Shown one piece after another: positions 50,516-63,944 of a stretch of 64,000 nt of DNA. The notes under the pieces were generated by a model that was not told where the DNA came from, did no database searches, and was given only the letters and a program-made list of their open reading frames with translations. Made by a program: the position numbers and the translations under genes. The number at the start of each line of letters is the position of its first letter. Positions within the stretch are counted from its first letter, which is position 1. The DNA comes from Niabella yanshanensis (GTDB taxonomy: Bacteria > Bacteroidota > Bacteroidia > Chitinophagales > Chitinophagaceae), in assembly GCF_034424215.1 (NCBI RefSeq), contig NZ_CP139960.1, forward strand, positions 2,604,001-2,668,000, read 5' to 3'.

Positions 50516-53095
50516 TTAATTAAATACGTAGCTTAAAGTAACACCGTAAGTACGCGGATCACCTAACACACCGGCATAATGCCCGGCATTACCACCAGCA
50601 GGCAACAGTTGTTCAAAATAGCCTTTATCCAAAATATTACGTCCCCAAATAAAGGCAGAGAACCCTTTTGTAGCTCTAAACCCAAGTCTCGCATTTACCA
50701 ATCCATAACCAGCTACATTTAAATAAGCTGATGGGGAGGGGCTTGAAGAAAAACCAGAACGGGCAAAGAAATCAGCACCGATAAAGAAACGGTTGGCTCT
50801 TCCGAATAAAGATGACGGCGTTGAATATTCACCACCTAAAGAACCTGCCCATTTGGAAATTCCGGGTATGGCACCACCAGAGATGTCCTTGAATGCCACC
50901 TGCACATTGTCTGCATTGGTTGCACCTGTTTCTTCTAATGGCAAAGGCGCGTTAGTGAACTTTACATAAATCCCCTCAGAATAAGCCAGCGCGCCATAAA
51001 AGCTGAAATGATGGTTTAACCTATAAGACGCATCGGCTTCAATACCCCTTACACGTACCTTATCTGCATTGGCAATATAACCCCTGTTTACTCCCAACTC
51101 TGCCGATTGTACGTTGGTTTGGTAGTCTTTGATATCGGAATTGTACGCGGCTATATTAAAGGTAAGATCCGCCGTCAGGTTTGTTTTAACACCTACTTCA
51201 TAGTGCTTGGTATACTCTGGCCTGATAACAGCCAGATCTGTTGCAGGCTGTCCGCTCACTGTAGGCAAACCTGCCACATTTACGCCCACCGGTTTGTAGC
51301 TTGTTGAAAAAGTACCAAAGGCATTTATTTTTCTTGAAGGCCGGCAAGCCAAGGTTACCTGGTAAGTAGCATTACGCTCATAGGCATCTGCTTCATAAAA
51401 CTGGTTGCTGTATACTCCGTTCTTTAATGTTAATAAAGCAGGATCTGTGGTTTGCAAACCGCCATAGGTTGTACGATCATACACCACCTGCTTTTCATCA
51501 TAATTTAATCTGATACCTGGCTGAATATGGAAATGATCAATAAACTCCCAGTCCACGTTGGCAAATACAGCAGCACTTTTAGAACGGATCGAAGAATTAG
51601 TTTTGATGCCATAACCTTCAAAAAGACCCGGGGTTTTCCAAAGAGCGCTGGTAGAACTTTGAGAAAAGCGCCACTGGTCACGACCGGATTCTTCTGTTCC
51701 GTCGATTTTTACTTCCTGGCCCAGGTAAAATAAGCCAATCACACCGCTTAAACGGTCTGTGATATCACCTGCATACCGGATCTCCTGGGAAATATTCTTA
51801 TGCTTTGCGGGGTTCTGAGATTTGGCCAAAGCCTGTAAGCCTGTAAAATCTCTGTCATTGGATGGGTCCCAGTTCCAATAACGCCATGCAGTAGTAGCCG
51901 TTAGCACGCCCGGCCCGATTTTGCTATCGATATTAACAGATGCGCCGCCTATTTCATTACCGGAATTCCAAGGTGTGTCATGGTCAATCACACGCATAAA
52001 TGCATCTACCTGGCCTGCCTTATTAATATTAGGTAATGTATAATTCAGGTCAGAAGTGATGGCATTGAATTGCCTGTACGCCGGTCTTTTAGTGGTAACT
52101 ACTCCTGCAACAACCTGTGCATATCCATCGGGTTTTTGTTTATTGTATTCGCCTGCTACAGTAACCGATGTGTTATCGGATACGTTATACAGGAATTGCG
52201 TACGTAAACCCAGGTTATTGATATCATTGGTATACTTATCGGTAGCTATATTATGTACCGTACCATCCCGTTGTGTTCCGGAGAAAGACACACGGGCTGC
52301 TAATCTTTTGGTCAGTGGCCCTGTAACAGACGCTTTAGCCTGTATAAATCCAAAATTACCGTAGCTTACTTCAAGATTACCGCCGGGCACAAAGCTGGGC
52401 TTACGTGTAGTAATATTGATAGCACCTGAAGTAGTGTTTTTACCAAATAATGTTCCCTGGGGGCCCCTTAGCACCTCTATCCTCTCAATGTCTACAAAAT
52501 CAAGTGTTGCTACAGCCGGACGTGCGTAATACACACCATCTACATAGTAACCTACTCCCGGATCCAGTCCGTCATTGGTCAATCCGAACGGAGACCCCAG
52601 TCCCCGAATATTAATACCGGTATTCCTCGGGTTGGAGGTATACATCTGCAAAGAGGGTACAATTTCTTTTACGCGGGTAACATTAAAAGCGCCGGACTCT
52701 TCAATCTGCTTACCTCCTACCACAGATACATTAATAGGCACGTCCTGCAGGACTTCACGTCTACGCCTGGAGGTAATCACTACCGTATCTGTCTGGTACA
52801 ATACCTGGAGTTTAACAATAAGTGAATCTTCCAGATTTCTTACCACTATATTGCGGATCGCATAGTTAACTGACGACACGGTTACGGTAAAAGGTACTTT
52901 AGGCGCCTGGGATAAAGTAAAAATACCGGCACCGTCGGTTGTTGTACCCTGTGCAGTACCTTTAATGACTACACTGGCACCGGGTAAGGGATCATTATTT
53001 TCATTGACTACCTTACCAGCCAGCTGGGCATTTACCAGCGCGGGCAGGAGGCCTAAAATCAATAATGTAAGTTTTAACTGGCTCGATTGTTTCAT
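50516..53095 (-). CDS. TonB-dependent receptor, probably for a sulfur compound
   Basis: An 859-residue outer-membrane receptor. The ATG at 53095 begins the signal peptide (MKQSSQLKLTLLILGLLPA, cleavage after VNA). A CarboxypepD_reg-like domain follows (LAGKVVNENNDPLPGASVVI), then a plug with VVITSRRRREVLQDVPINVS, VDGVYYARPAVATLDFVDIE and VLRGPQGTLFGKNTTSGAIN, and a 22-strand barrel ending in YGVTLSYVFN. The plug resembles FecA/iron-complex receptors rather than SusC. It lies last in the sulfate cluster and has its own promoter and a Cys-codon-rich leader ORF, so uptake of a sulfur source is the best guess. Confidence 0.9.
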   Translation of the reverse strand: MKQSSQLKLTLLILGLLPALVNAQLAGKVVNENNDPLPGASVVIKGTAQGTTTDGAGIFTLSQAPKVPFTVTVSSVNYAIRNIVVRNLEDSLIVKLQVLYQTDTVVITSRRRREVLQDVPINVSVVGGKQIEESGAFNVTRVKEIVPSLQMYTSNPRNTGINIRGLGSPFGLTNDGLDPGVGYYVDGVYYARPAVATLDFVDIERIEVLRGPQGTLFGKNTTSGAINITTRKPSFVPGGNLEVSYGNFGFIQAKASVTGPLTKRLAARVSFSGTQRDGTVHNIATDKYTNDINNLGLRTQFLYNVSDNTSVTVAGEYNKQKPDGYAQVVAGVVTTKRPAYRQFNAITSDLNYTLPNINKAGQVDAFMRVIDHDTPWNSGNEIGGASVNIDSKIGPGVLTATTAWRYWNWDPSNDRDFTGLQALAKSQNPAKHKNISQEIRYAGDITDRLSGVIGLFYLGQEVKIDGTEESGRDQWRFSQSSTSALWKTPGLFEGYGIKTNSSIRSKSAAVFANVDWEFIDHFHIQPGIRLNYDEKQVVYDRTTYGGLQTTDPALLTLKNGVYSNQFYEADAYERNATYQVTLACRPSRKINAFGTFSTSYKPVGVNVAGLPTVSGQPATDLAVIRPEYTKHYEVGVKTNLTADLTFNIAAYNSDIKDYQTNVQSAELGVNRGYIANADKVRVRGIEADASYRLNHHFSFYGALAYSEGIYVKFTNAPLPLEETGATNADNVQVAFKDISGGAIPGISKWAGSLGGEYSTPSSLFGRANRFFIGADFFARSGFSSSPSPSAYLNVAGYGLVNARLGFRATKGFSAFIWGRNILDKGYFEQLLPAGGNAGHYAGVLGDPRTYGVTLSYVFN

Positions 53096-53177
53096 TGTTC
53101 TGTGCTTTGATAAATTTTGGTGATATAGATTTTGCATGCTCCGTCGTATCGATATACTAAAAGAGAGTAGCAATAAA

Positions 53178-53197
53178 GTCTATAAATTATGTAGACT
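53178..53197 (-). promoter_or_regulatory. Inverted repeat in the receptor leader
   Basis: AGTCTA (53178-53183) and TAGACT (53192-53197) form a hairpin between the leader ORF and the receptor gene. On the minus strand the stem is followed by TTTATT, so it could be a weak attenuator. The half-site resembles the one in the hairpin at the promoter (53332-53361), so a protein operator is an alternative. Confidence 0.4.
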
Positions 53198-53226
53198 AAT
53201 TATGCAAAAAAATAGTTGGTTGTGTA

Positions 53227-53298
53227 TTAGCCGCAACAACAGCTTACACCTGGAAAGGCCCTACAGCAACAAGTTCTATAATACTTTTGTGTATACAT
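53227..53298 (-). CDS. Cysteine-rich leader peptide (23 codons)
   Basis: An ATG at 53298 opens a 23-codon frame that stops with TAA at 53229-53227. The encoded peptide has two runs of three Cys (RTCCCRAFPG and VSCCCG), six Cys in all, using both TGT and TGC. It starts about 10 bases after the predicted transcription start of the receptor gene, with a purine-poor, A-rich upstream region as is common in this phylum. The position and the consecutive Cys codons fit a leader peptide that senses charged tRNA-Cys, by ribosome stalling and attenuation. The mechanism is inferred. Confidence 0.7.
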   Translation of the reverse strand: MYTQKYYRTCCCRAFPGVSCCCG

Positions 53299-53315
53299 AT
53301 TTTTTAAACCGAGTG

Positions 53316-53346
53316 CAAATATAGGTGCATTAAAATAGTCCACAAA
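53316..53346 (-). promoter_or_regulatory. Consensus promoter of the leader peptide and TonB-dependent receptor
   Basis: On the minus strand TTTG (53343-53346), exactly 19 bases, then TATATTTG (53316-53323). The -33 box lies in the loop of the hairpin that ends the upstream gene. The predicted leader is about 210 bases. Confidence 0.8.
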
Positions 53347-53361
53347 AAAAGTAGACTATTT
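53332..53361 (-). terminator. Terminator-like hairpin after the siroheme/permease gene
   Basis: AAAATAGTC (53332-53340) pairs with GACTATTTT (53353-53361) around a 12-base loop, starting 14 bases beyond the stop at 53376, and ends in TTTT on the minus strand. It overlaps the -33 box of the next promoter. Confidence 0.6.
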
Positions 53362-53375
53362 TTTGAAAAAAATAT

Positions 53376-54938
53376 TTAGAGGAATAAAGCCTTGCAAATG
53401 GTAATAAGGCTCATTACGATAACCAGGACGCCCACCACAAGAAACATTTTCTTAACGGGCAAACGGGATGTGAGCATGGCCGAGAACGGGGCTGTAACAA
53501 TGCCACCGATTAAGAGGCCGGCTACAATATTCCAGTGATGAATACCAATAGTGAAAATAAAAGTAATAGCACTGGTTACGGTTAAAATAAATTTCGCAAC
53601 AGTAGAGCTGCCTACCACATAGCGCGGCGTTCTGCCGTTTTTAATAAAAGTGCCCGTTACCAGCGGTCCCCAGCCACCGCCGCCAAAGGAGTCGATAAAG
53701 CCTCCCACCAATCCTAATAAAGGGATATTCGTTTTTTTCTTTTCTATTTTGCGCTCTTTGCTTTTAAACACATTGGTTAGAATTCTCACACCAAGGTATA
53801 ATGTATAAGCTGCGATAAAAGGTTTGGTTATTGCGGCATATTTCTCGCCTACATAAGTAAGCAATAAAGCACCTATAACTGCGCCTATTATTGCCGGTAA
53901 TGCCAGCGCTTTGATGAGTTTTTTATTAACATTACCTAACCTGAAATGACTGATACTACCTGCTGCGGTAGTAAAAGATTCGGCAGAGTGAATACTGGCG
54001 CTCACTACGGGCGGAGGAACATTGAGCATCAGCAAAATAGTGGTACAAATCACACCATATCCCATTCCCATAGAGCCCGCAACTATTTCGGCCAGAAAGC
54101 CGGTCAGCAGCATCCAGTAAAACAGATGGTGATCCTTATTTAACGCCAGTAGAATGTCATCGACAAGATCAAATGCATATAACGCATATATGCTTAAACC
54201 AACCAACAATACTATTCCCAATATGATGAGGTACCAGTTGGTACTCTTTTGCGCTTTGGCTACTACATCAGCAGACTCCACTATTTCAGCGGCGGGTTCA
54301 GACTCAAATTCTTTTAAAGCTTCATCAGGATTTTCAACCAGCGAGCGTGTAACACTGTTAAGCACTTTCACTTTATGATCGAAATCGCCCGATAATTTAT
54401 TACGCAATGCCTGCATATTATCCAGAACTTCATCGATCTCGTCGGGTATTGTCTCGTTAAGTGTTTCCTTCAAGCGTTTGGCAATAGTGGGAGATTTTCC
54501 ATTAGTAGATATAGCTATTTTAAGATTGCCTTTCTTAACAACAGAACCCAGGTAAAAATCGCAAAGCTCGGGCTTGTCGGCAACATTTACCAGCTTCTCA
54601 CAAGCCATAGTATCTGTCCTTACCTGTTGTGCTATTTCCAAATCGTTTACAGCGGCGATAACAAGATCGGCTGCCTGGATATCTTCTATCTGATAGGCCC
54701 GCTCTTCAAGTACAATAGTATTATAAGGTGCCGTAAATTCACGGACGGCATCGCTTATTTGTATAGCAACAAGTTTGATTTGTGTTGCGGGCGCGTTCTT
54801 AATTACAGCCTGCAGCTTTTCCAATCCGATATTCCCTCCACCAATAATTAAAAGCTTCAACTGTTCCAGCTTTATAAAAACCGGGAACAAATTGTTTCCA
54901 AAATCAACTTTATTATTTGTATGTGCGGACTCGCTCAA
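53376..54938 (-). CDS. Fusion of siroheme synthase N-domain and TauE/SafE-type permease
   Basis: A 520-residue two-part protein. Residues about 15-215 are a CysG-type precorrin-2 dehydrogenase/ferrochelatase: FPVFIKLEQLKLLIIGGGNI with the NAD-binding GGGNIG, AAVNDLEIA and AISTNGKSPTIAKRLKE. After a linker, residues about 234-520 form an eight-helix TSUP permease with TGFLAEIVAGSMGMGYGV and GLVGGFIDSFGGGGWGP. It would finish siroheme and carry sulfate, sulfite or a similar anion. The start is TTG at 54938; no in-frame ATG lies near. It follows cysE in the cluster. Confidence 0.88.
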   Translation of the reverse strand: MSESAHTNNKVDFGNNLFPVFIKLEQLKLLIIGGGNIGLEKLQAVIKNAPATQIKLVAIQISDAVREFTAPYNTIVLEERAYQIEDIQAADLVIAAVNDLEIAQQVRTDTMACEKLVNVADKPELCDFYLGSVVKKGNLKIAISTNGKSPTIAKRLKETLNETIPDEIDEVLDNMQALRNKLSGDFDHKVKVLNSVTRSLVENPDEALKEFESEPAAEIVESADVVAKAQKSTNWYLIILGIVLLVGLSIYALYAFDLVDDILLALNKDHHLFYWMLLTGFLAEIVAGSMGMGYGVICTTILLMLNVPPPVVSASIHSAESFTTAAGSISHFRLGNVNKKLIKALALPAIIGAVIGALLLTYVGEKYAAITKPFIAAYTLYLGVRILTNVFKSKERKIEKKKTNIPLLGLVGGFIDSFGGGGWGPLVTGTFIKNGRTPRYVVGSSTVAKFILTVTSAITFIFTIGIHHWNIVAGLLIGGIVTAPFSAMLTSRLPVKKMFLVVGVLVIVMSLITICKALFL

Positions 54939-55997: not shown

Positions 55998-57656
55998 TTA
56001 AAGAATCCACTTCCTGTGGGAGAAATCGCCGAAAGTTTCATTTTCCTTTTTCTCTTTGGTATAAACCCCGAACAGCTCATCCAACGTGGTCAGTATCTGC
56101 TCTTCGTTCAAACTATCTTTAAACTTAGTGTTCAATCTTTCACCTAACCTGTCGCCGCCGATATGCAGATTGTACTTACCGTAAGCGGTACCCACAAACC
56201 CTATTTCTGCATTTGGAGACCGGCCACAGCCATTAGGGCACCCCGTCATCCGTAATACAATATTATCATGCTGCATGCTGTGCTTCTCCAGTATGGGTTC
56301 CAGCTTGGAGATGAGAGTGGGCAAATAACGTTGTCCTTCAGCTAACGCTAACGGGCAGGTATTGAACGCTACGCAGGCAATTGCATTTTTCCTTAAAGCT
56401 CCTGCTTTATCTGTATGTTCAATAATGCCATACTCGTTCAGCATTACTTCAATAGAGGCCTTATCCTTAGCACTGATATCTGTAAGAATTACATTTTGAT
56501 TAGCTGTAAAACGGAAATTACATTTACCCAACTCCGCTATTTTAAGCAGACAGGTTTTGAAATCAATCCCTTCACCATCTAATACACGCCCATTTTCTAC
56601 AAATACCGTATAATGCCATTTTTTATCTGCGCTTTGCGTCCAGCCATAACGATCTATTCTTTCGGTGAAAGTATAAGGACGGGCCGGCTCTAATTTAAAG
56701 CCACAACGCTTTTCAATTTCTTCCCGGTATTTATCAACACCCAGTTTGTCTACGGTATATTTTAAGCGGGATAATTTCCGGTCGGCACGATTTCCAAAAT
56801 CACGTTGAACAGTGATTGTTTCGTACACCGCTTTCAGGATCTTTTCTTCATCATTCTCCACAAATCCCAACACAGTAGCCAGTCTTGCGTAAGTATTAGG
56901 ATTACCATGTGTAGTTCCCAATCCGCCACCTGCAGCCAAGTTGAAGCCTACCAACTTATCATTTTCAATGATTGCGATCAACGCTATATCATTGATGAAT
57001 ACGTCTACATCATTATTGGGAGGAACCGCTATACCAATCTTTAGTTTACGGGGCAGATAGCGGTCTTTATATAAAGGGTCCTCTTCGGTCTTCTCTCCTA
57101 TTTTTTCTTTATCAATCCAGATCTCATACCAGGCCTGTGTTTTGGGCTTAGCCATTTCGCTGATCTTAGATGCGAATTGAAATACTTCATCATGCACCGG
57201 AGACTCGCCGGGGTTGGAAGTACAGCAAACATTACGATTCACGTCGCCACAGGTTGCAATCGAGTCCAGTCCCGCAAGGTTAAACGACTGCATGGTGGGT
57301 TTAATATGCGACTTTAAGATGCCGTGTAATTGCACGGTTTGCCTGGTAGTTATTTTAATGGTTCCGGTCGAATGCTCTCCCGCCACGTGGTGCATCGCCA
57401 CCCATTGTTCGGGCTTTAAGAAACCTCCCGGTAAACGCAGACGCAGCATAAAGGAATACAGCCATTCCAGTTTCTTGGCGCTACGTTCCTCGCGCCTGTC
57501 CCTGTCATCCTGTTGGTACATACCATGAAACTTGATCAGGTTCGTATCATCTTCACGCACGGCCCCTGTATAGCTATCCGACAAACTTTCCTTTAAAGTA
57601 CCACGCAAGCCGTTACTGGCAATTTTTATCTTTTCTACTGGTGATTGTTCGCTCAT
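55998..57656 (-). CDS. cysI: Sulfite reductase hemoprotein subunit (beta)
   Basis: A 552-residue siroheme/[4Fe-4S] enzyme that reduces sulfite to sulfide with electrons from CysJ. It contains GTIKITTRQTVQLHGI, VCCTSNPGE and the cluster-binding CVAFNTC and GCPNGCGRSP, so all four cluster Cys are present. The ATG at 57656 (MSEQSPVEKIKI) is preferred over an in-frame GTG thirteen codons upstream, since the extra part is only translated spacer repeat. It follows cysJ by about 80 bases. Confidence 0.95.
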   Translation of the reverse strand: MSEQSPVEKIKIASNGLRGTLKESLSDSYTGAVREDDTNLIKFHGMYQQDDRDRREERSAKKLEWLYSFMLRLRLPGGFLKPEQWVAMHHVAGEHSTGTIKITTRQTVQLHGILKSHIKPTMQSFNLAGLDSIATCGDVNRNVCCTSNPGESPVHDEVFQFASKISEMAKPKTQAWYEIWIDKEKIGEKTEEDPLYKDRYLPRKLKIGIAVPPNNDVDVFINDIALIAIIENDKLVGFNLAAGGGLGTTHGNPNTYARLATVLGFVENDEEKILKAVYETITVQRDFGNRADRKLSRLKYTVDKLGVDKYREEIEKRCGFKLEPARPYTFTERIDRYGWTQSADKKWHYTVFVENGRVLDGEGIDFKTCLLKIAELGKCNFRFTANQNVILTDISAKDKASIEVMLNEYGIIEHTDKAGALRKNAIACVAFNTCPLALAEGQRYLPTLISKLEPILEKHSMQHDNIVLRMTGCPNGCGRSPNAEIGFVGTAYGKYNLHIGGDRLGERLNTKFKDSLNEEQILTTLDELFGVYTKEKKENETFGDFSHRKWIL

Positions 57657-57667
57657 CCTTCTATATT

Positions 57668-57732
57668 CGTTAATAGTTAATGGTTCATGGTTCACAGCCC
57701 ACTGCTATGAACTATTGTCTATGATCTATTGG
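57668..57732. repeat. Degenerate heptad-like repeat between cysJ and cysI
   Basis: The spacer consists of words such as TTAATGGTTCATGGTTCA and CTATGAACTATTGTCTATG. It resembles simple reiterated text in other spacers of this cluster and encodes nothing recognisable. Confidence 0.45.
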
Positions 57733-57735
57733 CAA

Positions 57736-59445
57736 TTAATACACATCCTTCTCCCAACGTCCTTCTTCTACTAATTGGTGCAGATATTTCTCGGCTTCTT
57801 CTTCCGTTTTATTACCATGCTCTTTAAAAATTTCTACAAGCATTTTTTCTACATCTTTGCTGGTTGGTTCCCGCTTTCCGCTGATGTACATATAAGCGCC
57901 GTTGCTGATCCAATCATATAACTCAGCGCCTCTTTGTTTCATACGATGCTGTACATAGATCTTTTCTTTCTGATCGCGCGAGAAAGCTACGTCCAGGTTG
58001 GTCAATACGCCTGTTTGTAAATAATCCTGCAATTCCGTCTGGTACAAAAAGTCGGTAACAAAATGTTGCTCTCCAAAGAACAGCCAGTTACGGCCCTCCG
58101 CACCCTGTGCATCTCTTTCTGCAATAAAAGAACGGAAAGGCGCAATACCTGTACCCGGCCCGATCATGATCACATCTTTATCATTGGCAGGAAGTCTGAA
58201 GTGCTTCTGCTTCTGTATGAAGAATTCAAACTCAGTACCTGCCGGGTGCGTTGAAAAGAACTCACTGCTCACGCCGGTACGCTTATCATCTTCCACATAG
58301 TACTCATCCTTACTTACCGTAATATGTATTTCGCCCAAACCATGGCTTCCCGGTGCCGAAGAAATAGAATATAACCTTGGCGCCTGGGGCGTTAATATCT
58401 TAATCACTTCTTCAAAAGCGGCAGCAGCCTTTATAGGATACTTTTTGAGCAAATCAGGGATGCTCAATCTTACTTCTTCAGGAATTTCGTAACCCGTTAT
58501 AGCTGCGTACTGTTTTATGGTAGACTTAAGCGGGTATAAAATATTCAGATGCTTTTTTAACAACTCACGAACCGGCGCCTTTACCTTGGCAGTTTGTATT
58601 TCCAGGTCGGGATTTACACCTGTTAACGTAATGATTTCTTCTACAGCAGCATCACTGTTTACCGGGATCAGTCCCAGTGCATCACCGGGTAGATAATCCA
58701 GATCCTCATCTGTACTGATCTCTACATGATAGGTTTCTTTATTGCTACCTCTATCGTTTAAATTGATGTTGGTTACAATAATACCGTTGTAATGTTTTTT
58801 ACCGACAGGCTTCTTTTCTTCAACTAATGGAGCCGCAATAGCCGGAACACTTCCCACGCTGGTTTGCAATACAGTGGCTACATTGTCGATCCAATGCAGG
58901 GAATCTTCCTCATAATCTACATCACACTTTTTCAGAGGTAACATACGATGAGCACCTAAGGCTTCCAGCCTGGCATCAATATCTTCTCCGGTTTTACAAA
59001 ACTGTGCGTAGGAAGTATCACCCAGCGCCAATACACCGAATTTCATTTTCTTCAACTCAACAGCCTGCTCATGCAGCTGGTCATAAAACTTCTTAGCCAG
59101 CAGCGGCGGCTCGCCTTCACCCTGCGTACTGATGACTACAAAGAAATATTCTTCTTTGGTCAGGTCTGTAAACCTGTATTGATCCAGCCCAGCCAGCTTT
59201 ACACCGATGCCTTTCTTCTTGGCAATACCTGCCAGCTGAGTAGCCAGCTTTTTGGAGTTACCGGTTTCGGTACCGTATGCCAGTGTAATTTTCTTATTTA
59301 GTGCTGCAGGAGTTCCAGATGAAGGAAGCGCGCCCTGTAATGCGCCAGCCTGCCCGGCAATATAGCCGTTCAGCCAGATCAGCTCTTCCCTGGACAGTGT
59401 AGAAGTAAATTCTTTAATCTTCTGCAGTTTATCTTCAGATAACAT
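57736..59445 (-). CDS. cysJ: Sulfite reductase flavoprotein subunit (alpha)
   Basis: A 569-residue diflavin reductase that passes electrons from NADPH through FAD and FMN to CysI. The FMN/flavodoxin domain has LAYGTETGNSKKLATQLA and STQGEGEPPLLAKKFYDQL. The FAD domain has RLYSISSAPG, and the NADPH domain GPGTGIAPFRSFI, LFFGEQHF and the C-terminal YMYISGKREPTSKDVE. It overlaps the 3' end of cobA by 11 bases, which implies coupling. Confidence 0.95.
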   Translation of the reverse strand: MLSEDKLQKIKEFTSTLSREELIWLNGYIAGQAGALQGALPSSGTPAALNKKITLAYGTETGNSKKLATQLAGIAKKKGIGVKLAGLDQYRFTDLTKEEYFFVVISTQGEGEPPLLAKKFYDQLHEQAVELKKMKFGVLALGDTSYAQFCKTGEDIDARLEALGAHRMLPLKKCDVDYEEDSLHWIDNVATVLQTSVGSVPAIAAPLVEEKKPVGKKHYNGIIVTNINLNDRGSNKETYHVEISTDEDLDYLPGDALGLIPVNSDAAVEEIITLTGVNPDLEIQTAKVKAPVRELLKKHLNILYPLKSTIKQYAAITGYEIPEEVRLSIPDLLKKYPIKAAAAFEEVIKILTPQAPRLYSISSAPGSHGLGEIHITVSKDEYYVEDDKRTGVSSEFFSTHPAGTEFEFFIQKQKHFRLPANDKDVIMIGPGTGIAPFRSFIAERDAQGAEGRNWLFFGEQHFVTDFLYQTELQDYLQTGVLTNLDVAFSRDQKEKIYVQHRMKQRGAELYDWISNGAYMYISGKREPTSKDVEKMLVEIFKEHGNKTEEEAEKYLHQLVEEGRWEKDVY

Positions 59446-60316
59446 GCTTTATTGGTTTATTAAGTTCGTTGATGTTTTGGATTCCTTCGCCTACCGGTAC
59501 AAAATATTGTTCCCCGTGCTCACTATTTTTCAGCCATTTAAACTGTTGATGTAAGGCTACTACTTTCCCGATGATTACCAGCGAGGGCGAAACAAATTGC
59601 TTCCCTGCCAGTACCTGGTCGTAATCATAAATATTGCATTCATGTATGCGCTGATAACAGGTAGTTGCCTGCTCTGCCACGGCTACATGTACATCTTTCT
59701 GAACACCGAAATGCTGAAGCTTTCTCACAACATTTTCGAGTGTGCCGGATGACATATAAAAGACCAGCGTATCGTTGGTGCGTGCCAGTTCTTTCCAATG
59801 CCCGTCAGTGACAATGTCAGATTTATAATAGGTTAAAAACCTTACGGAAGTAGCATAGCCCCGTGCCGTTAAAGGGATGCCGGCATAAGCCGCAGCACCT
59901 AAAGAAGCTGTAACACCCGGAATAATTTCGTAGGGAATTTTATTGGCGATCAATGCCTGCAGCTCGTCTAAAACATTAGAAAAGATAGATACATCTCCTC
60001 CCTTTAAACGAACCACTTTTTTACCTTTCAGGGCGTAATCAACAATTAATTCGTTGATCACCTGCTGAGGCGTTGAAATGTTATTGCGGCATTCCTTACC
60101 CACTCTTACTATTTCAACGTCAGCCGAAACGTATCGATGTAGTATGACTTCACTTACCAGCCGGTCTATTAAAACCACTTCAGCTTCGCGCAAAGCATTA
60201 GCTGCTTTTACCGTTATCAGGTCGGGGTCACCGGGACCAGCTGCTGCTAATACCACTGACCCTATGCCTGCCTTTGGCGGGTTTAAATGGCTTGTTGTAT
60301 GATGAGAAAGGATCAT
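59435..60316 (-). CDS. cobA: Uroporphyrinogen-III C-methyltransferase
   Basis: A 293-residue SAM-dependent enzyme that makes precorrin-2, the first step to siroheme. It shows AAAGPGDPDLITVKAANAL, VRLKGGDVSIFSNVLDEL (the family's GGDPFIF motif is altered to GGDVSIF), PYEIIPGVTASLGAAAYAGI and VAEQATTCYQR. It complements the dehydrogenase/ferrochelatase domain at 53376-54938. It lies between cysN and cysJ, overlapping the latter. Confidence 0.93.
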   Translation of the reverse strand: MILSHHTTSHLNPPKAGIGSVVLAAAGPGDPDLITVKAANALREAEVVLIDRLVSEVILHRYVSADVEIVRVGKECRNNISTPQQVINELIVDYALKGKKVVRLKGGDVSIFSNVLDELQALIANKIPYEIIPGVTASLGAAAYAGIPLTARGYATSVRFLTYYKSDIVTDGHWKELARTNDTLVFYMSSGTLENVVRKLQHFGVQKDVHVAVAEQATTCYQRIHECNIYDYDQVLAGKQFVSPSLVIIGKVVALHQQFKWLKNSEHGEQYFVPVGEGIQNINELNKPIKHVI

Positions 60317-60332
60317 CGGTTCAGATGCTTGT

Positions 60333-61574
60333 TTAAGATAATAAAACAGCGGCTACCGTACTATTGCTGGTTTCATCCACCAATATAGCATTCCCATAGT
60401 CACTGATCTTATCAAACGGATCGTATACCAGGGGCTGGGCTGTTTTAATTTTAGCTTTTACCACTTCGTTCAGTTTCACATTATCAGTAACCGCGGTATG
60501 TTCTAAAGTATTAACGTCCAGCTTATACTCAATCTCTCTGATTATGGTACGAACTAAACGTCCCTTATGCTGTAAGAAATATTTATTGCCCTGTACCAAT
60601 GGCTTGTTATCCAGCCAGCAAAGGATCACTTCCATTTCGCTTTCTGTTTTTGGCTGGTTATCACTGCGAACAAATGTGTCGCCGCGGCTTACATCTATAT
60701 CATCGGCAAGGTGCAGCACTACGGCCTGCGGTGCAAAAGCTTCTTCCACCTCTTCACCGGCAATTTCTATTTTTGAAAGTGTGGTTTCAATACCTGCAGG
60801 TAACACTGTGATCTTATCTCCTTTCCTGTAAACACCGCTCACCACCTGGCCTGCATAACCTCTGTAGTCATGCAATTCCTGTGTTTGGGGGCGTATTACA
60901 TATTGTACCTGGAATCGGGGGTCCGAATGATTGATATCTTCTGACACTTCTATTTCCTCAAGAAACTGCAACAGCGGCTGTCCCTGAAACCAGCTCATTT
61001 TAGCCGAAGGCTCCACAATATTATCCCCGTGCAAAGCTGCGATAGGTATATAAGTAACATTACTCAAACCCAGTTGCGATGCTACTTTCTCGTAATCAGT
61101 TTTGATTTCGTTATAACGTGCTTCCGAAAACTCAACCAGGTCCATTTTATTGATTGCCACTACTACATGCGGCATTTTCAATAACGAAGCGATGATTGAG
61201 TGACGACGGGTTTGTTCTATTACACCCGCACGCGCATCTATGAGAATAATGATCAGGCTGGAGTTGGATGCCCCGGTGATCATATTACGCGTATACTGCA
61301 CATGCCCGGGCGCATCAGCAATGATAAACTTCCTTTTAGGTGTATTAAAATAGCGATAAGCTACATCAATAGTAATACCCTGCTCTCTCTCTGCACGTAA
61401 TCCGTCAGTCAATAATGCCAGGTCAATACCATCAGCATTTTTATTCTTGGATTGCTTTTCCAAAGCTTCCAGCTGGTCTACCAGGATGCTTTTACTATCG
61501 TATAATAAGCGACCTATTAATGTGCTTTTACCGTCGTCTACACTACCTGCGGTTATGAATCTGAGAATGTCCAT
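60333..61574 (-). CDS. cysN: Sulfate adenylyltransferase subunit 1 (GTPase)
   Basis: A 413-residue EF-Tu-like GTPase that drives APS formation by CysD. The G motifs are intact: GSVDDGKSTLIGRLLYDS (G1), the DAPGHVQYTRNM switch (G3) and NKMDLV (G4). Beta-barrel domains 2 and 3 follow. It ends without a fused CysC kinase, so PAPS is not made by this protein. It precedes cobA by 16 bp and follows a four-helix-bundle gene. Confidence 0.95.
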   Translation of the reverse strand: MDILRFITAGSVDDGKSTLIGRLLYDSKSILVDQLEALEKQSKNKNADGIDLALLTDGLRAEREQGITIDVAYRYFNTPKRKFIIADAPGHVQYTRNMITGASNSSLIIILIDARAGVIEQTRRHSIIASLLKMPHVVVAINKMDLVEFSEARYNEIKTDYEKVASQLGLSNVTYIPIAALHGDNIVEPSAKMSWFQGQPLLQFLEEIEVSEDINHSDPRFQVQYVIRPQTQELHDYRGYAGQVVSGVYRKGDKITVLPAGIETTLSKIEIAGEEVEEAFAPQAVVLHLADDIDVSRGDTFVRSDNQPKTESEMEVILCWLDNKPLVQGNKYFLQHKGRLVRTIIREIEYKLDVNTLEHTAVTDNVKLNEVVKAKIKTAQPLVYDPFDKISDYGNAILVDETSNSTVAAVLLS

Positions 61575-61620
61575 TTTTGTTGATTAGTTGAATAGTTGAT
61601 TAGTTGATTTGACGTTAATA
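61575..61620. repeat. Heptad repeats (TTGATTAG type) before cysN
   Basis: TTGATTAGTTG, AATAGTTGATTAG and TTGATTTG follow one another with a seven-base rhythm. Confidence 0.5.
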
Positions 61621-61623
61621 CTG

Positions 61624-61986
61624 TTATTTTTTACCATTCAAATAGGTGATATAAACATTAAGCAACTTTCCAACCTTTTCTATTCGTTTTCTAAAATAAT
61701 TTATCTGTTCTTCTGCTATGTATTCTTCATCAAGGGCATCAATCAAATGATTCAAGGTTTCACTTAACGAGCCTCTTGCAATAATACAAAACCGTAATCT
61801 ATCTGGTATCGTATGCCTTCCATGTCCTTCAGATATTTGTGTCCCTACAGAGCGGGAACTTCTTATCAGTTGATCCGAAAGTCTAAATTTTTCTACATCC
61901 GGAAATGTCTTGGTCAATGCCGAAATTTCCTTTTTCAAAACTCTGGCGGCTTTCCAAACTTCCAGATCCTCAAAACTTTGGTACAT
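61624..61986 (-). CDS. Four-helix-bundle protein (23S rRNA intervening-sequence family)
   Basis: A 120-residue protein of the S23/four-helix-bundle family, with the typical FEDLEVWKAARVLKKEISAL, FRLSDQLIRSSRSVGTQISEG and the closing helix NYFRKRIEKVGKLLNVYI. Such genes are often found in intervening sequences of 23S rRNA genes or between ordinary genes of Bacteroidota. The function is not known. Here it separates cysD and cysN, two subunits of one enzyme, and heptad-type repeats stand on both sides, which suggests a small inserted cassette. Confidence 0.9.
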   Translation of the reverse strand: MYQSFEDLEVWKAARVLKKEISALTKTFPDVEKFRLSDQLIRSSRSVGTQISEGHGRHTIPDRLRFCIIARGSLSETLNHLIDALDEEYIAEEQINYFRKRIEKVGKLLNVYITYLNGKK

Positions 61987-62076
61987 TTAGTTGCTTAGTT
62001 TATTTGTTGATTAGTTGGTTCGCTTGCTTTTCCTAGTCAACCAGTTAACTAATCAACCAGTCAACCAACATATCAA
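61987..62076. repeat. Heptad repeats (TTGATTAGTTGG type) before the four-helix gene
   Basis: The left half reads TTAGTTTATTTGTTGATTAG and the right half returns in inverted orientation (AACTAATCAACCAGTCAACC), so the spacer can fold back on itself. The words match those at 61575-61620. Confidence 0.5.
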
Positions 62077-62985
62077 CTAAAAGTACCCCCCCTTCTTCCT
62101 ATCCTCCATCGCAGCCTCTGTAACGCGATCATCAATACGGGTTTCACCGCGCTCGGATATACGGGTGGCCATTATTTCGGTTACTACTTCATCCAATGTA
62201 GAAGCACTAGACTCCACCGCTGCAGTACAGGTCATATCACCTACCGTACGATAACGTACACGCTTATTAACGATTACATCGCCTTCATCAATAGTAATGA
62301 AATCAGAAACGGCAATCAACTGGCCCTCATGCACCAACACATCCCTGTCGTGTGCGAAATAAATAGAAGGTAATTGTACCTTTTCTTTTTTGATATAGCT
62401 CCACACATCCAGCTCTGTCCAGTTACTGATCGGGAATACCCTTACGTTTTCACCTTTGTGAATACGGCCGTTATAAATATTCCAAAGCTCAGGACGCTGC
62501 AGTTTAGGATCCCATTGGCCAAACTCATCACGAACGGAAAAAATACGCTCTTTGGCGCGGGCTTTTTCTTCATCGCGGCGGGCGCCACCAATACAGGCAT
62601 CGAATTTAAATTCTTCGATAGTATCTAACAGGGTATGCGTTTGCAACCAGTTACGGCTGGCAAATTTCCCTTTAGGCTCAGTAAGCTTTTTCTCGCGTAT
62701 GGTATCTTCTACTTTCCGTACGATCAACTCCGCGCCTAACTCTTTTGCCAGATTATCGCGATACGCCAGGGCTTCCGGAAAATTATGCCCGGTATCAATA
62801 TGTACTAAGGGAAAAGGGATTTTGCCCGGCGCGAAGGCTTTTTTGGCTAATTGAACCAGGGTAATAGAATCTTTACCGCCGCTGAAAAGCAAGGCTGGTT
62901 TTTCGAACTGTGCAGCTACTTCGCGCATGATAAAGATGCTCTCGGCTTCTAACTGCTCTAAATAGTCTAATTCGTATTTGCTCAT
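62077..62985 (-). CDS. cysD: Sulfate adenylyltransferase subunit 2
   Basis: A 302-residue PP-loop enzyme that forms APS from ATP and sulfate. The N-type loop is LLFSGGKDSITLVQLA near residue 30. Family signatures HIDTGHNFPEALAYRD, IGGARRDEEKARAKERIFSV and FPISNWTELDVW are present. The length is normal. It works with CysN, which is one gene downstream, beyond the four-helix-bundle gene. Confidence 0.96.
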   Translation of the reverse strand: MSKYELDYLEQLEAESIFIMREVAAQFEKPALLFSGGKDSITLVQLAKKAFAPGKIPFPLVHIDTGHNFPEALAYRDNLAKELGAELIVRKVEDTIREKKLTEPKGKFASRNWLQTHTLLDTIEEFKFDACIGGARRDEEKARAKERIFSVRDEFGQWDPKLQRPELWNIYNGRIHKGENVRVFPISNWTELDVWSYIKKEKVQLPSIYFAHDRDVLVHEGQLIAVSDFITIDEGDVIVNKRVRYRTVGDMTCTAAVESSASTLDEVVTEIMATRISERGETRIDDRVTEAAMEDRKKGGYF

Positions 62986-62998
62986 TTTTATTTTATTA

Positions 62999-63035
62999 GT
63001 CTTCCAGCTCCCATTTCTGCAGGAGAAAGGAAGAC
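62999..63035 (-). promoter_or_regulatory. Hairpin in the cysH-cysD spacer
   Basis: GTCTTCC with GGAAGAC and, inside, CTCC with GGAG form a stem with an internal loop and a ten-base apex, 14 bases before the cysD start. It could guide ribosome access or processing. The whole spacer (62986-63199) shows no gene. Confidence 0.45.
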
Positions 63036-63199
63036 GACAATCGATTGTATGTTTGGCTGAGCTTTATACCGGCAGATGAAGTATACGATCCCTTGACAAA
63101 CACTCCAAAGGAGTTCTAAAGGATAACTATTATTACGGGTTGCCTTTGGAATAACAAACCAATGTTATTATTTATACTTCAGCCGGGCTCATTATTATT

Positions 63200-63895
63200 T
63201 TAGCTGTTAACATGAAGGCCGCATTCTTTATGCGACACTTCCCACCACCAACGACCGGCACGTGCGTCTTCGCCCGGCTCAATGGCGCGGGTACAGGGTG
63301 CACAACCGATACTGATAAAACCTTTATCGTGTAGTGGGTTGTAAGGAATATTATTTTCCTTGATATAGTCGATCATCTGTTCGTAAGTCCAGTGAATTAA
63401 CGGGTTAAATTTGTATAACTGGCGGGCATCATCCCATTCCAGCATTTTCATCTCTTTCCTGTTATCGGACTGGTCCGCTCTTAAGCCGGTAATCCATACT
63501 TTAGCCCCTTGTAAAGCCCTGTTCAGCGGCTTCACTTTACGGATAAAGCAACATTGCTTACGATTTTCAACAGATTCAAAAAAGGCATTGACGCCTTTTT
63601 CATTTACAAATTGCTCCACATCCGCTGCCTCAGGAAAATACACCTGGATATTGGTTTTGTAGCGTGCATTTGTTTTTTCGAGTAGTTCGTAATGTTCGTA
63701 AAAAAGACGCCCGGTATCGAGCGTAAATATTTTTACAGGCAGGTTGTTCCGGGCAATTACATGAGTAAGCACCTGGTCTTCCTGGCCTAGTGAAGTCGAA
63801 AAAACAGTTTCCTGGGGAAACTGCTTAGACACTATCTCTATAGCTTCTGCAAGAGAAGCATTTTCGATATCCTGTATTTGTTGTTCTGTAAACAT
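63200..63895 (-). CDS. cysH: Adenylyl-sulfate (APS) reductase, CysH family
   Basis: A 231-residue PP-loop reductase that forms sulfite. It has VFSTSLGQEDQVLTHVI, FTLDTGRLFYEHYELL, KQCCFIRKVKPL and ISIGCAPCTRAI. The CC...CxxC set binds a [4Fe-4S] cluster and marks the APS-specific type. The catalytic Cys is in HKECGLH at the C-terminus. The ATG at 63895 starts the usual N-terminus. An ATG ten codons upstream lies in a palindrome and is less likely. It comes first among the complete genes of the cluster. Confidence 0.94.
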   Translation of the reverse strand: MFTEQQIQDIENASLAEAIEIVSKQFPQETVFSTSLGQEDQVLTHVIARNNLPVKIFTLDTGRLFYEHYELLEKTNARYKTNIQVYFPEAADVEQFVNEKGVNAFFESVENRKQCCFIRKVKPLNRALQGAKVWITGLRADQSDNRKEMKMLEWDDARQLYKFNPLIHWTYEQMIDYIKENNIPYNPLHDKGFISIGCAPCTRAIEPGEDARAGRWWWEVSHKECGLHVNS

Positions 63896-63911
63896 CAAAG
63901 CCTTTGGCTTA

Positions 63912-63944
63912 AGACCATAGTCCATGGTCGATGGACTATGGTCT
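63912..63944. repeat. Perfect palindrome upstream of cysH
   Basis: AGACCATAGTCCAT (63912-63925) and ATGGACTATGGTCT (63931-63944) form a 14-bp stem with a five-base loop, continued by further CTATGAAC-type words. It may be a structural repeat or an operator. Confidence 0.6.

Follow-up and report, generated by a model that had tools for sequence, protein, structure and literature searches.

The window examined here, a 64,000-nucleotide stretch of Niabella yanshanensis DNA, raises the question of whether a TonB-dependent receptor (TBDR) gene in a sulfate-assimilation cluster is controlled by the short frame ahead of it, which contains two runs of three consecutive Cys codons. The initial annotation had proposed that ribosomes stall in this frame when Cys-tRNA is scarce and that receptor expression rises as a result, so that the receptor would import a sulfur source. 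Our data support a cysteine-codon leader and place it, together with a palindromic promoter site, among genes that extend beyond the receptor.

Layout of the locus

We found the 23-codon frame with both Cys runs on the minus strand, as initially annotated, and ahead of it the described promoter, TTTG-N19-TATATTTG (Table 1). Reading along the minus strand, the order is op1 with the TTTG, TATATTTG, the leader, a T7 tract, op2 and the TBDR gene. We take the TTTG to be the -33 element on the basis of the Bacteroidota promoter consensus. The leader ATG lies 17 nt downstream of the TATATTTG box (counted by eye), 131 nt separate the leader stop from the receptor ATG at 53095, and this ATG lies 80 bases after op2. 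A hairpin at 53178-53197 had also been described between the leader stop and the receptor gene. The inverted repeat is present, but it belongs to op2 (53176-53198), a second copy of the palindrome found at the promoter (53336-53358), and we rejected it as an attenuator RNA element.

Table 1. Features of the receptor locus and its surroundings in the window.
Feature	Position	Strand	Basis or remark
TonB-dependent receptor, target gene	50516..53095	minus	Pfam plug, barrel and CarbopepD_reg domains
op2, second palindrome copy (23 bp)	53176..53198	minus	between leader and receptor; 2 mismatches to the palindrome
T7 tract	53206..53212	minus	ends exactly 7 nt before op2
Leader ORF MYTQKYYRTCCCRAFPGVSCCCG	53298-53227	minus	23 codons and stop TAA; direct sequence reading
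Second Cys-Cys-Cys run (TGT TGT TGC)	53233..53241	minus	leader codons 20-22; one codon ahead of the stop
First Cys-Cys-Cys run (TGT TGC TGT)	53263..53271	minus	leader codons 10-12
TATATTTG, -7 promoter element	53316..53323	minus	sequence; TAnnTTTG conserved before orthologous leaders
TTTG, assumed -33 promoter element	53343..53346	minus	19 nt ahead of TATATTTG; positions counted by eye
op1, operator-like palindrome TAGTCTAC-N7-GTGGACTA	53336..53358	minus	contains the promoter TTTG; 1 mismatch compared to TAGTCTAC-N7-GTAGACTA
Siroheme synthase N-terminal domain fused to TauE sulfite exporter, upstream neighbour	53376..54938	minus	domain matches
Sulfate-assimilation genes: sulfite reductase, CysJ-like, tetrapyrrole methylase, CysN-like, two PAPS_reduct-family	55998..63925	minus	domain matches

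The receptor gene and its sulfur context were likewise as annotated, with TonB plug and barrel domains in the product and sulfate-assimilation genes on the same strand. Among 25 of the 27 NCBIfam matches, which are those listed, most were siderophore-, heme- or B12-type receptors, SusC/RagA also occurred, and none scored above its cut-off. PDB matches from a sequence search were mostly siderophore or colicin receptors. By sequence, the window TBDR is nearest to the siderophore and heme receptor types. The two PAPS_reduct-family genes are presumably CysD and CysH, an assignment that we made by size and order, and a hexapeptide-family protein is also encoded among the upstream neighbours. A gene for a 23S rRNA intervening-sequence (23S-IVP) protein lies between the CysD- and CysN-like genes (61624-61986). 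Just outside the window, a peroxiredoxin gene precedes the cys genes and is itself preceded by a degenerate palindrome (by eye). Among 68 compared loci, 22 contain a cys-type gene of the window in their flank, 12 of them with a leader and 10 without.

The Cys frame recurs ahead of orthologous receptors

We collected 110 orthologous TBDR loci and kept 96 upstream regions, leaving out 8 loci whose 120 nt of upstream sequence duplicated another's, 5 that lacked a usable start and 1 that was too short; near-identical pairs such as L066/L076 were retained. One omitted locus, L041, carries a leader ending NRCCC. Considering ATG frames of 6-60 codons in the 400 nt before the receptor, we found at least three consecutive Cys codons (CCC) in 28 of the 96 regions, compared to 1 of 96 in the antisense control and a mean of 0.225 (maximum 1) in 40 shuffled sets. 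At least two consecutive Cys codons (CC+) were found in 49 of the 96 regions, compared to 8 antisense and 6.0 shuffled. The comparison of orthologous leaders that the initial annotation had suggested thus finds the Cys frame conserved, with synonymous changes, in about half of the regions. Two CC frames (L029 and L099) were excluded as unlike leaders, which left 47 CC+ leaders for further analysis. Since 47 of the 96 regions contain no CC+ frame, the leader is optional.

The enrichment is also seen among intergenic gaps of at least 150 nt within the same loci, which gave 76 receptor regions and 147 regions ahead of other genes. CCC frames were present in 23 of the former compared to 3 of the latter (p 1.5e-9), and CC frames in 42 compared to 12. 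The other genes gave three CCC positives, all kept in the control count: one in L105 ahead of a Cys/Met PLP enzyme gene, one in L064 ahead of a peroxiredoxin-family gene and one in L058 ahead of an aldo/keto reductase gene that neighbours the receptor. Because of what they precede, the control rate may be too high.

Judged by record titles, CC+ leaders occur in Niabella, Niastella, Ferruginibacter, Mucilaginibacter, Daejeonella, Desertivirga and Sphingobacterium, as well as in Telluribacter, a Flammeovirgaceae and a Saprospiraceae MAG. A frame with the ending MCMC was found at two Flavobacterium loci. Five leaders (L065, L068, L002, L014 and L079) mix Met and Cys codons, with ends such as MCMC, RCCMCS, CCMCNC and CCGCMC, a composition that would suit sensing of both sulfur amino acids.

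Frame conservation argues for translation

All runs of at least three TGY codons in the 96 regions, taken in any register, amount to 34, of which 8 have no TAnnTTTG box within 220 nt upstream. In all 26 box-preceded runs (23 loci), the first ATG after the box is in the Cys frame, and in 25 of them this frame is open as far as the run. The probability that 26 of 26 are in frame by chance is about 4e-13, or 1e-11 when one run is counted per locus. When any upstream ATG within 150 nt is accepted, the Cys frame is open for 30 of the 34 runs, and for 3 a frame in another register is open. Of the 47 leaders, 31 have such a box in the 60 nt before their ATG, compared to 1 of 47 in the antisense control, and in 17 of those 31 it is found 25-30 nt before the ATG. 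Because the box lies so close upstream of the ATG, we infer that the leader starts near the 5' end of the transcript. At the other end of the frame, the Cys run finishes 0-4 codons before the stop in 36 of the 47 leaders.

In Niabella hibiscisoli (L031), all six Cys codons of the window leader are kept. Its first run, TGT TGT TGT, is one synonymous change from that of the window, and its second run has identical codons followed by a fourth Cys. Among the other 17 codons, 7 differ nonsynonymously, one of them to Cys. Across six overlapping close pairs, nonsynonymous differences were found at 4 of 28 Cys positions compared to 51 of 128 other positions, and so Cys codons are retained more often, not always. 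Outside the Cys run, leader length and residues differ between relatives, and only the run is common to them. By this evidence of frame conservation, the frame is a real, conserved and translated Cys-codon leader.

In 18 of the 47 leaders, the Cys run is directly preceded by CGA, which makes up 185 of the 3572 Arg codons of the receptor genes and is the least used among them; CGATGTTG recurs across the set. By eye, L064 contains two successive polycysteine frames upstream of 9707, before its peroxiredoxin-family gene, and the called ATG of that gene falls inside the CGATGTTG of the second frame.

Termination probably differs among relatives

In the window, a scan of 52900-53500 for intrinsic terminators gave 0 hits, the 214-nt leader RNA folded no better than its shuffles (z 0.23), and Rfam had no match at gathering scores. 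An intrinsic terminator and an unusual leader fold were rejected for the window on the first two of these results. A trp-type terminator with antiterminator is not seen in the window but is found in two TBDR relatives, L084 and L110, where a long hairpin is followed by a U-run and its 5' arm pairs with the segment directly downstream of the Cys codons. The antiterminator pairings (-17.8 and -16.4 kcal/mol) were each matched in strength by 1 of 300 shuffles. Terminator-like sites were found in 7 of the 47 TBDR leaders, compared to 0.7 expected from shuffles, and in 4 of 10 leaders ahead of genes for PhyH-like dioxygenases, compared to 1.0 expected. The PhyH leader of the N. yanshanensis genome itself (L208) has a 6-pair terminator-like stem downstream. 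Across the 47 leaders, the Cys codons pair with downstream sequence only slightly better than in shuffles (mean z -0.40 +- 0.17; 9 of 47 at p<=0.05).

The gaps between leader and receptor, available for 45 of the 47 leaders, have a C content of 0.212 and a G content of 0.110, compared to 0.195 and 0.169 in 226 control flanks (p 1.3e-7), and the window gap contains 26 C and 13 G among 131 nt. A bias of C over G is as expected of Rho loading sites, such as a Rho-dependent leader attenuator of the tnaC or mycobacterial cys type would have, and we treat it as weak evidence for them. Termination in the window is more likely to be Rho-dependent than intrinsic. Since some relatives have terminators, none was found in the window and the gaps tend to be C-rich and G-poor, the lineages would share the sensor and differ in the terminator.

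Alternative readings of the leader

An attenuator with a classical intrinsic terminator can be drawn for the window: the Cys codons (GTTGTTG) would pair with CAACCAAC, the T7 tract would follow, and a stalled ribosome would cover the 5' arm. A weak hairpin with a U-tract can indeed be formed in 26-nt stretches of both the window and N. hibiscisoli (-3.5 and -2.5 kcal/mol), terminators were found at the corresponding position in L084 and L110 as well as at the L058 leader ahead of the aldo/keto reductase, and the terminator-like sites counted above include the leader in the same genome. The stem is very weak, however, the scan of the region was empty, and pairing of the window Cys codons with downstream sequence does not exceed that of shuffles (z +0.64), so we regard this reading as unlikely for the window. 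Stalling might instead act on translation of the receptor, through reinitiation or exposure of its start site. The short gaps of some relatives (29-31 nt in L043 and L058) would suit this, and the parts available to us of two reports describe mycobacterial Cys leaders as regulating translation (PMC13236596, PMC9031893). The gap is 131 nt long in the window, elsewhere it reaches 198 nt, and the inspected folds show no shared structure over the receptor start; we consider action on translation unlikely but plausible.

If the TGTTGTTG run were a DNA or RNA element, protein-binding or structural, the recurrence of CGATGTTG before it at the nucleotide level, with CGA there in 18 of the 47 leaders, would fit, as would the three runs for which an ATG frame is open in another register as well. 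The in-frame position of every boxed run with its first ATG argues against such an element, as does the interchange of TGT and TGC across leaders (101 to 43); we rejected it on the frame test and consider it extremely unlikely. A functional peptide, for example a metal-binding or secreted Cys peptide, would fit the capacity of Cys runs to bind metals and the two Flavobacterium leaders that end MCMC. It is very unlikely given that, the Cys codons apart, relatives differ freely in the length and sequence of the peptide and that the two leaders tested had no NCBIfam match.

A palindrome shared with other sulfur genes

The palindrome TAGTCTAC-N7-GTAGACTA has 2 matches in the window at 3 or fewer mismatches, compared to 0.17 expected. 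Across the N. yanshanensis genome we found 3 palindromes at 1 or fewer mismatches, compared to 0 in the control, and 17 compared to 19 at 3 or fewer. Since the latter count equals the control, only near-perfect palindromes carry weight. Neither a spacer of 6 instead of 7 bases (9 hits compared to 27 in the control) nor the core TCTAY-N7-RTAGA (27 compared to 28) was enriched in this genome. In 60 family genomes, 39 palindromes at 1 or fewer mismatches were found in 20 genomes, compared to 3 hits of the reversed pattern. They precede cysD-, cysH-, peroxiredoxin-, fatty-acid-hydroxylase-like, receptor- and PhyH-type genes, of which six were assigned by Pfam and the rest named by eye. Within 320 nt to either side, a CC+ frame accompanies only 6 of the 39, and thus most members of the palindrome regulon are without a leader.

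At 2 or fewer mismatches, the N. yanshanensis genome contains 8 palindrome places, and 5 of them are followed by a short CC+ frame (by eye). Beyond the window, the leader MLLSATYSFYNRRERMLASTLCGCCCC precedes a PhyH-like dioxygenase gene that adjoins a Cys/Met PLP enzyme gene, MTISLASKHTYCCCCGPSF adjoins an FGE-sulfatase-family gene and precedes a small frame, MNQSGNYVWYTKRRLLYRMVSNSSVLSVTSPAISCCCS precedes a SusC/SusD pair, and MNKLICFVISVQSGYILYRVESFYNRIFTGSCC has no nearby gene on its strand. The initial annotation, which had considered a single leader, was right about the Cys codons and the link to sulfur, and it overlooked the palindrome regulon, the further leaders in the same genome and the other targets. 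Three places in this genome are recorded here as observations. At G000:C1:2018024 (L171/L201), a palindrome and a polycysteine leader stand beside an FGE-sulfatase-family gene with only a frame of ~90 aa downstream. At G000:C1:4490192 (L203:6195 onwards), a palindrome and a CC leader have no same-strand gene nearby and by eye resemble a stranded copy of the 4949168 unit. At G000:C1:2195000-2199200 (L200), a sulfur-looking cluster with three palindromes contains genes for a Cys/Met PLP enzyme, a PhyH-like dioxygenase, a short-chain dehydrogenase, a second NAD-binding/TauE fusion and a fatty-acid hydroxylase.

Leader and palindrome overlap among receptors but are not tied: 25 of the 47 leader loci have op1 no more than 130 nt from the leader, and the palindrome is also present in 24 of 49 leaderless regions. 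The PhyH-like genes served as a test independent of the receptors, for which we examined 30 loci of 58 match places. Among the 15 closest orthologues, 10 have a CC+ leader, all 10 with an upstream palindrome (4 or fewer mismatches), and 2 more have the palindrome only; among 15 more distant ones, no palindrome and one CC frame far upstream were found. No polycysteine leaders were found upstream of the palindromes in L304, L305, L310, L315, L320, L327 and L297. Searches by motif were less informative. Matches to CGATGYTGYTGYTRA across 195 family and 295 class genomes were mostly noise, and the 59 sites examined among those listed comprised 49 without an in-frame ATG, 9 overlapping long frames and 1 that passed. 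In the N. yanshanensis genome, TGYTGYTGYTRA gave 49 sites (30 loci and 16 stretches read), 12 of them in short ATG frames; 2 of these 12 are clear of long frames, and one is the PhyH leader.

A second palindrome copy at a fixed distance from a T run

A copy of the palindrome between leader and receptor (op2, 3 or fewer mismatches) was found in 16 of the 47 leader loci, 13 of which also have op1, compared to 0 for a mirror-pattern control. In 13 of the 16, a run of at least six T lies within 25 nt upstream of op2, and in all 13 (the window, L003, L005, L006, L007, L010, L011, L019, L031, L032, L038, L039 and L040) it ends exactly 7 nt before op2; the other 3 sites have no such run. On the downstream side of op2, only 1 of 16 sites has a T run of this length within 25 nt; for op1, 6 of 25 sites have one upstream. 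By eye, the palindromes before other genes in L305, L320 and L297 have the same 7-nt spacing, and in L304, L310, L315 and L327 a T-run follows a hairpin behind the upstream gene at a spacing of 9-10 nt.

Since the U-tract ends 7 nt before op2, a repressor that occupies op2 would leave RNA polymerase parked on this tract. We hypothesized a double lock, or roadblock-assisted attenuator, in which the repressor at op2 and the ribosome on the Cys codons act on the same elongating polymerase, and in which the ribosome, stalled on the Cys codons or clearing them behind the parked polymerase, would decide between release and passage. If true, the state of the repressor and the supply of Cys-tRNA would be merged at one site. 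This is a tentative idea that we would not expect to hold. Either the T run is such a release site or, as a duller alternative, it is the -33 element of a second promoter; a TAnnTTTG box between the T run and the gene was found in 0 of the 16 loci.

An Rrf2 protein is a candidate repressor

A gene for an Rrf2 protein (G000:2679069-2679473) lies 11 kb past the end of the window. Orthologues with at least 60% identity are present in 19 of the 20 palindrome genomes, compared to 18 of 40 genomes without a near-perfect palindrome (Fisher p 1.6e-4), and in genome G051 the orthologue lies 1.5 kb from the cysD palindrome. Around the three Rrf2 genes we found no palindrome at 4 or fewer mismatches. The relation between the protein and the palindrome is an association from which a repressor may be proposed. 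As with CymR and the Rrf2 sulfur repressors, an Rrf2 protein goes together with sulfur genes' palindrome here, whereas this protein falls below the CymR equivalog cut-off of NCBIfam (60.8 bits, cut-off 195) and the leader would form a second layer.

Discussion

Our data suggest that the receptor gene is probably controlled by an attenuation leader that senses Cys-tRNA and by a putative Rrf2-type repressor on the palindrome promoter, with termination in the window more likely through Rho than through an intrinsic terminator. The leader peptide would be translated and report on cysteinyl-tRNA. When Cys-tRNA is plentiful, the ribosome would complete the leader and depart, and transcription would then end, or the mRNA go unused, between leader and receptor, where the sequence is C-rich and G-poor. 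Under Cys-tRNA shortage, the ribosome would be held up at the Cys codons close to the stop, and synthesis of the receptor mRNA would run to completion. A sulfur-regulon repressor, probably of the Rrf2 family, would bind TAGTCTAC-N7-GTAGACTA at the promoter, so that repressor and leader would form two layers gating the receptor and other sulfur-scavenging genes.

Polycysteine leader ORFs have been described before cys/cbs operons in Mycobacterium, Propionibacterium and Bifidobacterium (BMC Microbiol 2005, PMC1262725), with a suggestion of Rho-dependent termination that its authors call a weak prediction (PMC1262725). Mycobacterial Cys leaders were described by Canestrari et al. 2020, as cited in PMC9031893 and PMC13236596, and in the parts available to us these later papers speak of translation. 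The leaders studied here resemble the actinobacterial ones in the short ORF, the Cys codons next to the stop, the sulfur genes downstream, the lack of a conserved terminator hairpin and the start near the promoter (leaderless there, with a 5' UTR estimated at ~12 nt here). They differ in phylum, in their targets, an outer-membrane receptor among others, in their variable peptide length, in the palindromic operator-like site, often in two copies, and in the Met codons mixed into some of them. In Rhodobacterales, uORFC-8-2 before cysS has tandem Cys codons and presumed ribosome-mediated attenuation; as far as the accessible portion of that report goes, its motif has two stems and a U-run, an intrinsic terminator, and its target is cysteinyl-tRNA synthetase (PMC8632094). 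Such a two-stem motif with a U-run ahead of cysS is not what the window contains, where the gene is another and neither terminator nor unusual fold was found.

Within the phylum, excerpts of a study of Flavobacterium psychrophilum give clues of leader-peptide attenuation at amino-acid biosynthesis operons, which is the same general principle; unlike here, the operons named there are biosynthetic, no Cys leader appears in those excerpts and their passage on cysteine concerns a protease (PMC9723704). Leader-gene distances in Bacteroidetes have been reported, in the part available to us without the word cysteine (PMC4833913). The initial annotation knew of no described Bacteroidota example, and our search of open-licence PMC literature likewise found no Bacteroidota Cys-codon leader. 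The principle is known; what appears new, judged by that search, is the phylum, the kind of target and the combination with a palindromic operator-like site.

If this reading is true, Bacteroidota control outer-membrane import and sulfur scavenging through cysteine-codon leaders, and an attenuation previously known from Actinobacteria and Rhodobacterales is joined here to a palindromic operator regulon. The sequence signature may mark receptors and enzymes whose substrates are sulfur sources. For a large phylum that has been little studied, the leader would also offer a natural reporter of how much Cys-tRNA is available.
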